Of a stretch of 64,000 nt of DNA, positions 8,307-11,064 are shown in pieces. The number at the start of each line of letters is the position of its first letter. Position 1 is the first letter of the stretch. The DNA lies in contig JACRPN010000014.1 of the NCBI GenBank assembly GCA_016223145.1, forward strand, positions 62,001-126,000, given 5' to 3'. Made by a program: the position numbers and the translations under genes. Source of the stretch: Armatimonadota bacterium. Its GTDB lineage: Bacteria > Armatimonadota > Fimbriimonadia > Fimbriimonadales > Fimbriimonadaceae. The notes beneath the pieces were generated by a model. It had not been told where the DNA came from. It saw only the letters and a program-made list of their open reading frames with translations, and made no database searches.

Positions 8307-8951
8307 GTGGAAAGCGTTCCTCCTCCGTTTTCGCCGATGCCGCCCCCGAAGCCGAAGAACTCGACGCCGCTGATCTTGGGCATTGTGTTCGGCGTGCTGT
8401 TGCTGGTCTGTGGCGGCGGGGCGTTTGCCCTGTTCTTCTTCGGGCGCACCGCCATCAAAGACACGGGCAAGATGATCGCCTGCGTCGCTTCCTTTGATGC
8501 CGTGCAAAAGGCAGTGATCGCCTACGCCCAGGACCACAACGGCGTGCTGCCGAAGGCCGAAACCTGGCAAGACGATGTGAAGGGCTACTTGAAGCTCGAT
8601 CCGGACTTCAAGGACCTCGAGAATTCCCCCTTTGACTTCCAGGCCGTGACCAAAGACGGCGAGTGGTGCTGCACCATTTCCGCCGAAAAGAAGACGGGAA
8701 TCAGCTTCAACGATGACCTTTCGGGCAAAAAGCTGGCGGAAATCGTCAACCCGTTCGAGACGCCCTTGATCTTTGAGACCGAGAAGGTGGGGCGAAATCT
8801 CCACTCGAAGTACGTCGAGCAGCCTCAGTCAACCGCGCCGAAGTTCTTTGGCACATCCCGAGGCTGGTTCTGGGCGCCCGTACAGGGCGAGGTTCGCGGA
8901 ATGGAGAAGATGGGCGCGGAGATCAAGACCCGCCGCCGCAAGTCCGAATGA
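8307..8951 (+). CDS. Membrane-anchored protein with pilin-like globular module
   Basis: 214 residues, GTG start. A proline-rich N-terminus (residues 5-17) precedes one membrane helix (about 22-46). Residues 68-97 (YAQDHNG.LPKAETWQDDVKGYLK) match a module shared with the two propeller proteins at 17139 and 26272 and seen in type IV pseudopilin-like DUF1559 proteins. The remainder contains a C-C pair (WCCTI). There is no DGH tail. It is probably anchored in the inner membrane with the module outside. Function unknown. Confidence 0.6.
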   Translation: MESVPPPFSPMPPPKPKNSTPLILGIVFGVLLLVCGGGAFALFFFGRTAIKDTGKMIACVASFDAVQKAVIAYAQDHNGVLPKAETWQDDVKGYLKLDPDFKDLENSPFDFQAVTKDGEWCCTISAEKKTGISFNDDLSGKKLAEIVNPFETPLIFETEKVGRNLHSKYVEQPQSTAPKFFGTSRGWFWAPVQGEVRGMEKMGAEIKTRRRKSE

Positions 8952-9004
8952 CCGTTTGAACGATTTGGCACCACCGGAACACCCACGTTTCGGAAGTCCC
9001 GGTG

Positions 9005-9577
9005 ATGGACGGTGATCTGAACCAGGCCCGGCGCGGCGACCGAGAGGCGATGGCGCGAATAGTGGACCGGCATTACGATGCTGTGTTCCGATTCTGCGCG
9101 CGTCGAATCGGTGCCGACCTGGCCGAGGATGCCGCTCAAGAGACCTTCATTTCGGCGCAGAGGAGGCTGAGAAGCTTCCAGGGCGCGAGCTCTCTGAGCA
9201 CGTGGCTATTCGGAATCGCCCACAACCATTGCCGGAATCTTGCCCGCAAGAGGAAAACGGAAATGTTAGGCGCTTGGGTCTCAATCGAAAGGTCTGAAGC
9301 CGCCATCGATCCCAGCCTGAACGGGGCGATGGATCGTGGGGGTGCGAGACCTCAATTGGAGTCTCAGCTCATCGATCGTGAGGCGCTTCGGGTCGCCCTA
9401 TCGAGTCTGAGTGCGGACCACCGCGAGGTGGTTGTGCTTCACGAAGTCGAAGGGCTGACCTATGAAGAGGCAGCAGAAGTGATCGGGATACCGGTAGGAA
9501 CCGTGAAGAGCCGCCTGCACCATGCGTTTCTCAAGCTTCGAGAAGCCCTCTGCTTGCGGGAAGAGGTGACGGCATGA
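9005..9577 (+). CDS. ECF-type RNA polymerase sigma factor
   Basis: 190 residues. Region 2 lies at about residues 19-80 (DRHYDAVFRFC, DAAQETFISA, STWLFGIAHNHCRN). Region 4 lies at about 133-180 (LSADHREVVVLHEVEGLTYEEAAEVIG, GTVKSRLHHA). A GTG is one codon upstream at 9002, but the GGAAG at 8992-8996 is better spaced for the ATG at 9005. The stop overlaps the ATG of the next gene (ATGA), which encodes its probable anti-sigma factor. The pair is probably a signal-responsive transcription switch, autoregulated as is usual for ECF operons. Confidence 0.93.
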   Translation: MDGDLNQARRGDREAMARIVDRHYDAVFRFCARRIGADLAEDAAQETFISAQRRLRSFQGASSLSTWLFGIAHNHCRNLARKRKTEMLGAWVSIERSEAAIDPSLNGAMDRGGARPQLESQLIDREALRVALSSLSADHREVVVLHEVEGLTYEEAAEVIGIPVGTVKSRLHHAFLKLREALCLREEVTA

Positions 9578-11064
9578 GTTTACAAGAAGATCTGAAAGCC
9601 TATGTCGATGGCGAGCTGCCCGCAGAGCGCCACGCCGAAATCGAGGCGGCGGTTGCCTCCGATCCGGGACTTCGCCAGGAGGTTGAGTTCATGAGAGCGC
9701 TAGGATTTGAAATCAAGAGGATGGCGGCCGAGCCCGCGATCGCGGGTAGGGAAGCGGCCCTGAAGGCCGTTAGGGGCAACGCGTTGCCGTGGTGGAATCC
9801 CTATAGCAGGGTCGGCCGACTGGCTTATTCCGGAGCGCTGGCGGGTCTGCTGATCGTGGTCCTTTTCCCGGTCTTTGCACAACCCGAACAAGACGTGATG
9901 ATGCCTGCGTCGGACAGCAGCATGAAATCGGTGATGGCGGGCGCCGACGCAGCGACGGCTTCGCCTCAGGAAGAGTCGGCAGGCTCGAATTACGCACGCG
10001 GACGGACGCCCGCCGACATGCCAAATTCTCCGACGCCTTCCAGGGATATGTCGCTCAATGAGCGCTTCGCCTACCGGACACCCGAAAAGCGATCTCCGGC
10101 CTTTGAAGCTCCAGCCACGATCCCTGGCCCAGAGGGCGCCGGCAAGGCGAAAGCCGATCCCTATGGACTCAGCGGAGCCGCCGGAGGCTTTGGCGGCGGT
10201 GGCGGCGCTGGAGTTGCGGGTGAAGGAAACGCGGAGAAGCTGGGTCGCGACTCTGGGTCCACGGCTAAGGGCGAAGCGGCCGTTACCGCGGACAAGGCTC
10301 CGGGTGCGCCGCCCCAAGCCAACCGTGGCGGAGGCCTGGCAGCCTCCAAGGCCGCACCGACCGGTGGCGCATATTCGGCCCCCCTCCGTATGGTCATTCA
10401 GAGCGCCGACGTGAACGTGCGGGTCAAGAGCGTGGAGAAGGCCGTGCTCGACGCAACCTCGTTGGCCAAGAGCCTCGGCGGCTTCATCGAGAACTCGACG
10501 AACGCCGGCGATGAGAAGAACCCAGAGGCCACCCTGGTTATCCGCGTGCCCAGTTATCAGTTCGACATCGCCCTCAAGAGGCTGACTGACTATGGTGAGC
10601 GAATCGGCCCGCCCGCGATCAGCAGCCAGGACGTGACGCGTCAATACGCCGACCTCTCTGGAAGGCTGAAGGTCCTGCACGCCGAGGAGGAAAGCTACGT
10701 GACGATGCTTCGCGGCGCGAAGAAGATCGGCGAGATTCTGGAGATCAAGGACCGACTCTCGACGGTGCGCCAGGAGATCCAGAGTCTTGAGGAGCAGCGC
10801 ATCGCGGTGAGGGACCAATCGGAGCTCTCGACGGTAACGGTGCACTTCAGCGAAAAGCCCAAGATCGAGGCCGCGGCTGTGCCTGAGGATTGGAGCGGCG
10901 ACGCCTGGGTGGGAGCCGTGAACGGGCTAAAGTCGGTCGGCCGGTTCCTTGGCATGATCGGAATCTTTTTCTTCGTCTACATTCCAATTTGGGCGCCCCC
11001 GGTGGCGCTGTTCTGGGTGCTCTCGAAGAAAGGGCGCCAGGGGCACCCAACGCCCGCAACTTGA
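9574..11064 (+). CDS. Membrane anti-sigma-like protein with DUF4349 domain
   Basis: 496 residues. Residues 1-50 resemble an anti-sigma N-terminus (LKAYVDGELP..R) but lack the HxxxCxxC zinc motif. A membrane helix lies at about 85-105, then a long Pro/Gly/Ala-rich linker (about 110-265). A DUF4349 domain follows (about 270-430) with a coiled-coil stretch (LEIKDRLSTVRQEIQSLEEQ). A hydrophobic helix pair or hairpin lies at about 455-485. Translational coupling to the ECF sigma gene (4-base overlap) supports a sigma-sequestering role. DUF4349 would then sit outside the cytoplasm as a sensor. That role is inference. Confidence 0.8.
   Translation: MSLQEDLKAYVDGELPAERHAEIEAAVASDPGLRQEVEFMRALGFEIKRMAAEPAIAGREAALKAVRGNALPWWNPYSRVGRLAYSGALAGLLIVVLFPVFAQPEQDVMMPASDSSMKSVMAGADAATASPQEESAGSNYARGRTPADMPNSPTPSRDMSLNERFAYRTPEKRSPAFEAPATIPGPEGAGKAKADPYGLSGAAGGFGGGGGAGVAGEGNAEKLGRDSGSTAKGEAAVTADKAPGAPPQANRGGGLAASKAAPTGGAYSAPLRMVIQSADVNVRVKSVEKAVLDATSLAKSLGGFIENSTNAGDEKNPEATLVIRVPSYQFDIALKRLTDYGERIGPPAISSQDVTRQYADLSGRLKVLHAEEESYVTMLRGAKKIGEILEIKDRLSTVRQEIQSLEEQRIAVRDQSELSTVTVHFSEKPKIEAAAVPEDWSGDAWVGAVNGLKSVGRFLGMIGIFFFVYIPIWAPPVALFWVLSKKGRQGHPTPAT

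Follow-up and report, generated by a model that had tools for sequence, protein, structure and literature searches.

The gene pair described here probably encodes, as judged from sequence comparison and with a confidence that we put at about 70%, an autoregulated ECF sigma factor and its zinc-less class I anti-sigma factor, with DUF4349 acting as the sensor and an envelope regulon under the control of the pair. The membrane protein would thus probably hold a transcription factor inactive. A conserved promoter-like motif ahead of the ECF gene, together with the likely regulon that shares it, went unseen in the first-pass annotation and gives the best clue to function.

The window is the whole 64,000-nt stretch of contig JACRPN010000014.1 from an Armatimonadota bacterium, and all positions follow its numbering. 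Loci and genomes of the comparison set are labelled L### and G###, and the source genome of the window is called its own genome. The features of the pair are as follows.

8955..8985, + strand: promoter-like motif TTTGAAC-N17-ACACCCA, 5' of the ECF gene (pattern match at 8957)
9002..9577, + strand: ECF sigma factor gene, starting at GTG 9002 or ATG 9005; Sigma70_r2 and r4_2 over the Pfam cut-off
9574..9777, + strand: putative zinc-less class I anti-sigma-like domain, residues 1-68; zf-HC2 just under the cut-off, no metal ligands, three model helices
9808..9876, + strand: predicted first membrane helix, residues 79-101; hydrophobic by eye
9877..10386, + strand: Ala/Gly/Pro-rich disordered linker, residues 102-271, presumably extracytoplasmic; pLDDT <50 over nearly all of it
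10387..11019, + strand: DUF4349 match (PF14257, E = 1.2e-47), residues 272-482, including a helical hairpin at 355-417
10900..11040, + strand: C-terminal membrane helix of the model, residues 443-489, with P471, W473 and P475 inside

The gene pair and its membrane protein

The ECF protein (191 aa) contains Sigma70_r2 at residues 21-85 and Sigma70_r4_2 at 126-179, both over the cut-off, and no other Pfam domain. It matches SigW (5wuq; E = 3.2e-20) and E. coli sigma-E (1or7; E = 4.9e-18) in phmmer searches. Its ORF (9002/9005-9577) overlaps by 4 nt with the ORF 9574-11064 (+ strand), which encodes a protein of 496 aa with the order anti-sigma-like N-terminus, membrane helix, disordered linker of ~170 aa, DUF4349 and C-terminal membrane helix. 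The coordinates and features that the first-pass annotation had given for this ORF were confirmed by the ORF check and by Pfam. As for class I anti-sigma factors, the gene is encoded beside an ECF gene, and the same is found in relatives. Just 5' of the ECF gene lies the gene of a membrane-anchored protein (8307-8951) for which the Pfam search gave no match; a look-alike, judged by eye, is present in L001 (6770-7480), about 2 kb 3' of the anti-sigma gene.

The resemblance of the N-terminus to anti-sigma helices, claimed earlier from the sequence, goes with profile matches below the cut-off. In the window protein zf-HC2 is matched at residues 4-28 (E = 0.004 with the whole protein, 0.00025 with residues 1-79), and the NCBIfam 'anti-sigma factor' NF052375 weakly (27.9 bits; cut-off 100). 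Among 15 aligned N-termini (alignment A3), zf-HC2 is matched in 14 and RseA_N in five with E up to 1 (best E = 1.5e-5 and 1.2e-4, respectively). D12 and L33 are invariant in all 15, and the invariant columns of 14 aligned family members include D12, L33, G58, W440, P471, W473 and P475. Class I anti-sigma factors have a cytoplasmic bundle of three helices and a fourth helix; the AlphaFold2 model of the N-terminus has helices at 3-11 and 17-29 and one long helix at 31-68 (pLDDT 50-83). The N-terminal profile gave no significant match to solved structures, those of anti-sigma factors included.

The first 70 residues of the window protein contain neither the HxxxCxxC motif that marks the zinc subtype nor a CxxC. 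The motif, reported missing in the first-pass annotation, is absent from all 37 anti-sigma proteins examined in the window's family (20 loci, window included, and 17 further ones). A zinc-less N-terminus is ordinary, because about 44% of class I anti-sigma domains are zinc-less according to section 6 of PMC7406223, where HxxxCxxC is given for only ~48% of the membrane-bound class I proteins. Section 7 of the same paper describes anti-sigma helix 1 (D11 in RseA) as contacting sigma4 and helix 4 as contacting sigma2, and the invariant D12 would be compatible with such a helix 1 contact.

DUF4349 scores well over its cut-off in the window protein (162.4 bits against 27.7). In the AlphaFold2 model of the whole 496-aa protein, built from an alignment of two rows (window and L001), mean pLDDT is 60.9, with disorder over most of 101-272 and a folded DUF4349. 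Modelled alone, residues 266-432 (167 residues) reach a mean pLDDT of 91.4, and the predicted core fold is b-a-b-b-a-b, then a hairpin of helices and one final strand. The conserved W440 directly precedes the C-terminal membrane helix, and the topology is probably one with both termini in the cytoplasm. A sequence search of solved structures with DUF4349 gave no significant match. The hairpin resembles many coiled-coil hairpins in solved structures (Foldseek, VIA-align 2) and the head has weak ACT/ferredoxin-like matches (NikR, SerB; best Foldseek E listed 0.087), with no confident structural relative among the solved structures compared. For the other proteins mentioned below, signal peptides, lipoboxes and membrane helices were assigned by eye or with simple patterns.

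DUF4349 behind ECF genes in the phylum

DUF4349 occurs in several phyla, and 119 of the 201 genomes from the window's phylum have a match. Among the matches listed, an ECF gene lies directly 5' on the same strand in 60 of 150 DUF4349 loci (59 of the 112 in the first set and one of the 38 further loci). The ECF profile used here was built from phmmer matches of the window's ECF protein in the loci. The first set comprises 112 distinct loci, leaving out L004, which the DUF4349 profile missed, and the duplicate L001, which shares one contig with L040 and was counted once with it. L004 itself (own genome, C14:158068) is a 308-aa protein with a weak DUF4349-like match of 24 bits, below the cut-off. 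Coupling is found in 57 of the 60 loci that were chosen for a long frame (the exceptions are L044, L045 and L047); L030 also has a long frame yet is uncoupled. Most of the shorter DUF4349 proteins (~300 aa) count as lipoproteins under a simple lipobox pattern and, except for L025 and L182, are uncoupled. About 12 uncoupled loci lie at contig edges, where coupling cannot be judged (e.g. L013, L016, L028, L102, L179-L181 and L185-L187). The search for the same fusion behind ECF genes elsewhere, proposed in the first-pass annotation, is thus strongly positive, and its suggestion that DUF4349 is a candidate sensor stands because of this recurrence.

The coupled proteins differ in their N-termini. 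Among the 20 coupled loci of the window's family, 18 have an LKAYxDGEL-like helix, L052 is divergent, and in L041 the ECF end and the start of the membrane protein are out of register. HxxxCxxC is kept in 24 coupled loci by a simple rule (23 and L182), all of them outside the window's family, and in the own genome HxxxCxxC domains adjoin at least two other ECF genes (C22, C5). The N-terminus is short or odd in the other 16 coupled loci, one of which (L081) is partly masked. The coupled DUF4349 proteins of L070, L076, L078, L080, L083-L091, L093 and L094 make up a third class, in which a short N-terminus (typically SPLDEVLENIPQE followed by GLEQRC) replaces the anti-sigma helix bundle. Scanning the other anti-sigma classes for dyads provides leads only, because the scanned region includes coding sequence.

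A tree was built from 117 DUF4349 domains, and the coupled ones do not form one group in it. A single clade of coupled domains is rejected with all rows included (p = 0.0007; 59/117 rows), and is compatible with the data after removal of contig-edge, long-branch and plasmid-record rows and L081 (p = 0.148; 55/100 rows).

G201, G099 and G222 each possess an orthologous ECF gene (56-63% identity), behind which a zinc-less domain and a membrane helix are encoded. The DUF4349-like part of these three anti-sigma proteins is shortened or degenerate by eye, and in G222 (L240) DUF4349 falls below the Pfam cut-off; the full domain is therefore not essential. A tandem order of ECF gene, anti-sigma-DUF4349 gene and second DUF4349 gene was observed at L223/L246 (G204) and L231/L243 (G219), and the second DUF4349 protein in G204 has a lipobox.

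These orthologues bear on a different reading, in which the anti-sigma factor is real, but DUF4349 is structural or anchoring and the signal is read elsewhere, either by the linker as protease bait or by a partner protein. We consider this unlikely. It would fit the long disordered linker, the retention of ECF, zinc-less domain and helix in G099, G201 and G222 beside a reduced DUF4349-like part, and the serpin lipoprotein gene found behind a motif match in G222 (L278). However, DUF4349 is retained in the Pfam-found coupled loci of many families (that of G222 being below the cut-off), and it also occurs in lipoproteins that share the promoter-like motif.

A promoter-like motif and its likely regulon

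The loci of the window's family share the consensus TTTGAAC-N17-ACACTCA 5' of the ECF gene. Scored as GAAC-N18-CAC, the motif is present in 17 of 19 loci (other spacers 0-5; letter shuffles mean 0.44, largest 2) and absent from L035 and L048. The window's own locus, scored separately since its fetched stretch was too short for this count, makes it 18 of 20. The further loci all have the motif (17/17; TGAAC in 15 of these; other spacers 0-3), which brings the total for the family to 35 of 37 loci. Sixteen of the 17 further loci come from genomes outside the first search, G099 having been inside it; those of G201 and G099 come from genomes picked for motif matches, and the other fifteen do not. 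The counts include near-copies (L238 is close to L038, and there are several in the first set). As background, 307 other ORFs from loci of the family were scored, and 7 of them have the motif upstream (other spacers 2-6); in other families it is found in 4 of 36 loci. This conservation suggests that the motif may be recognized by the ECF protein itself, that is, autoregulation. Another suspected promoter, GGAAC-N15-GTC at 8976, was dropped as unconserved.

Genome-wide pattern counts are less distinctive. With one mismatch allowed, the window holds 4 matches against 4.7 expected, which is the chance level. The strict pattern has 98 matches in 41 family genomes against 42 for the reversed control, an uneven excess (14 against 1 in G201, control level in many genomes), and a looser pattern over five genomes has 18 against 13. 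In the own genome the strict pattern is no commoner than the control (2 vs 3; 3 vs 3 for the looser form). Near-identical motif-like sites occur several times per genome in G111, G128 and G206 and look like repeats rather than promoters.

Forty motif sites were chosen by hand from 12 genomes, mainly those rich in matches. Where an ORF starts within 60 nt, its product has, at most of the sites, the look of an exported or lipidated protein, as judged by eye. Pfam searches with ten N-terminal pieces behind sites gave ARPP-1, VIT and serpin over the cut-off, and DUF2330 and DUF4140 below it; DUF2330 and DUF4139 genes were then located by whole-genome search. The motif lies 5' of standalone DUF4349 genes in 12 of 30 loci (other spacers 0-3), under a rule that misses the site of L244, seen separately. 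It also precedes 8 of 11 ARPP-1 genes (other spacers 0-2) and 10 of 30 DUF4139 genes (other spacers 0-1; loci for 30 of the 47 matches listed); the ORF rule behind these two counts mis-framed L340 and L341, both of which carry the site (as L285 and L264). For DUF2330 the association is weak (5/28 rows, of which L397 and L403 are one gene; other spacers up to 4, at spacer 20). The tests for ARPP-1, DUF4139 and DUF2330 are partly circular, because these genes were chosen for their presence behind motif matches, and the Fisher tests on the motif counts treat related rows as independent (DUF4349 input 14/33).

The own genome has the motif in front of its ECF gene and also of DUF2330, DUF4139 and ARPP-1 genes. 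The site lies 19 nt before the start of the DUF2330 gene and ~110 nt before the ATG of the DUF4139 gene, and takes the form GGGAAC at the ARPP-1 gene. No motif was found upstream of the own DUF4349 lipoprotein gene (L003) or its genus counterparts L105 and L106. The case for a regulon in the own genome depends on site position and on relatives, not on pattern counts. Taken together, ARPP-1, DUF4139 and perhaps DUF2330 proteins are probably co-regulated exported proteins, for which a function is unassigned. The serpin gene of L278 has a lipobox and starts within 30 nt of its motif match, and protease inhibitors may belong to the regulon. A conserved exported-looking protein with NLTWEDTGRYK, then VGPNISDMTIQV, was observed behind the motif in three genomes (L268, L280 and L286), and the piece tested has no Pfam match.

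The motif might instead belong to a different sigma factor that controls this operon along with other genes, the ECF/anti-sigma pair being merely one of its targets. The own genome has 26 sigma region-2 matches, and other ECF proteins among them could read the motif; strict matches are also found in genomes such as G111, which has 2 DUF4349 matches, and the gene that was examined there encodes a lipoprotein. However, several of the strict matches in G111 are repeats, and no other gene has the motif as constantly as this ECF gene (35/37), as autoregulation predicts. Moreover, G201 and G099 have no DUF4349 fusion by Pfam and still possess the orthologous ECF gene with the motif upstream. We regard control by another sigma factor as improbable.

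Proposed switch and relation to known systems

The sequences themselves show the gene pair and its conservation, the lack of zinc, the predicted fold and the recurring motif; sigma binding, the reading of the motif by this sigma factor, release by proteolysis and the kind of signal are our inferences. In the proposed autoregulated switch, the zinc-less N-terminal helical domain would keep the sigma factor bound in the cytoplasm, while DUF4349 would read a signal outside the cytoplasmic membrane. DUF4349 would consist of a ferredoxin/ACT-like head with a coiled-coil hairpin, and the second membrane helix would anchor it again. Release would most likely result either from a cut within the long linker or close to it, or from an altered assembly of DUF4349. 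The freed sigma factor would then transcribe its own operon from TTTGAAC-N17-ACACTCA and activate a limited number of genes whose products are exported, namely ARPP-1, DUF4139 and, in many relatives, standalone DUF4349 lipoproteins; genes for VIT-domain and DUF2330 proteins are perhaps switched on as well. That the N-terminus does not bind the sigma factor, the two genes being mere neighbours and the product simply a membrane DUF4349 protein, is hardly credible: family scores do fall below the cut-off and the metal site is absent, but ECF coupling recurs in many families with small gaps or overlaps between the genes, and the lipoprotein forms, which have no cytoplasmic N-terminus, are uncoupled.

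A feedback between like domains is suggested by the free DUF4349 lipoproteins, since they carry the motif in relatives. Quite tentatively, the DUF4349 lipoproteins of the regulon might pair with the DUF4349 of the anti-sigma factor via their hairpins and set the switch by titration, and the DUF4349, ARPP-1, DUF4139 and VIT proteins could form one envelope-defence system. Independently of such a feedback, with DUF4349 placed on an anti-sigma factor beside the motif and the probably co-regulated proteins, several domains (DUF4349, ARPP-1, DUF4139 and perhaps DUF2330) become a single testable envelope-response system.

We know of no function for DUF4349. Our literature search found no source that joins DUF4349 with anti-sigma factors, as far as the consulted parts of the papers go (Table S1 of PMC7406223 might list such fusions), and the consulted parts of papers naming DUF4349 contain no tie to sigma factors. 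ARPP-1, DUF4139, DUF4140 and DUF2330 were never named together with DUF4349 in the literature searched. Both zinc-less anti-sigma factors and fusions to sensor domains are kinds already known; new here is the promoter-like motif 5' of the ECF gene, which is shared with standalone DUF4349, ARPP-1 and DUF4139 genes.

On the plasmid NZ_LR134459 of the actinobacterium Tsukamurella (L120 1632-3208), a sigma-70 gene overlaps a membrane DUF4349 gene by 4 nt, as in the window. The Tsukamurella protein differs in its short cytoplasmic N-terminus, in which inspection by eye shows no LKAYxDGEL helix. In the five further plasmid records that match DUF4349, the ECF profile finds no same-strand ECF gene within the fetched stretch.

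The window protein is similar in plan to zinc-less class I anti-sigma factors of the RseA/RskA type, with which it shares a helical cytoplasmic domain (as predicted here), an Asp in helix 1 (D11 of RseA, as given in section 7 of PMC7406223; D12 here), the membrane helix that follows and the position of its gene directly 3' of the ECF gene. Unlike them, it possesses an outer DUF4349 and a second, C-terminal membrane helix, and none of the solved anti-sigma domains is matched significantly by its N-terminal profile. The DUF4349 lipoproteins (L003) have the same outside domain and a C-terminal hydrophobic helix, but carry a lipobox in place of the cytoplasmic anti-sigma domain and have no ECF gene upstream. 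The HxxxCxxC-DUF4349 fusions in other families of the phylum share with the window the order of ECF gene, anti-sigma domain, helix, linker and DUF4349, and differ in that they keep the zinc motif (24 loci, none of them in the window's family).
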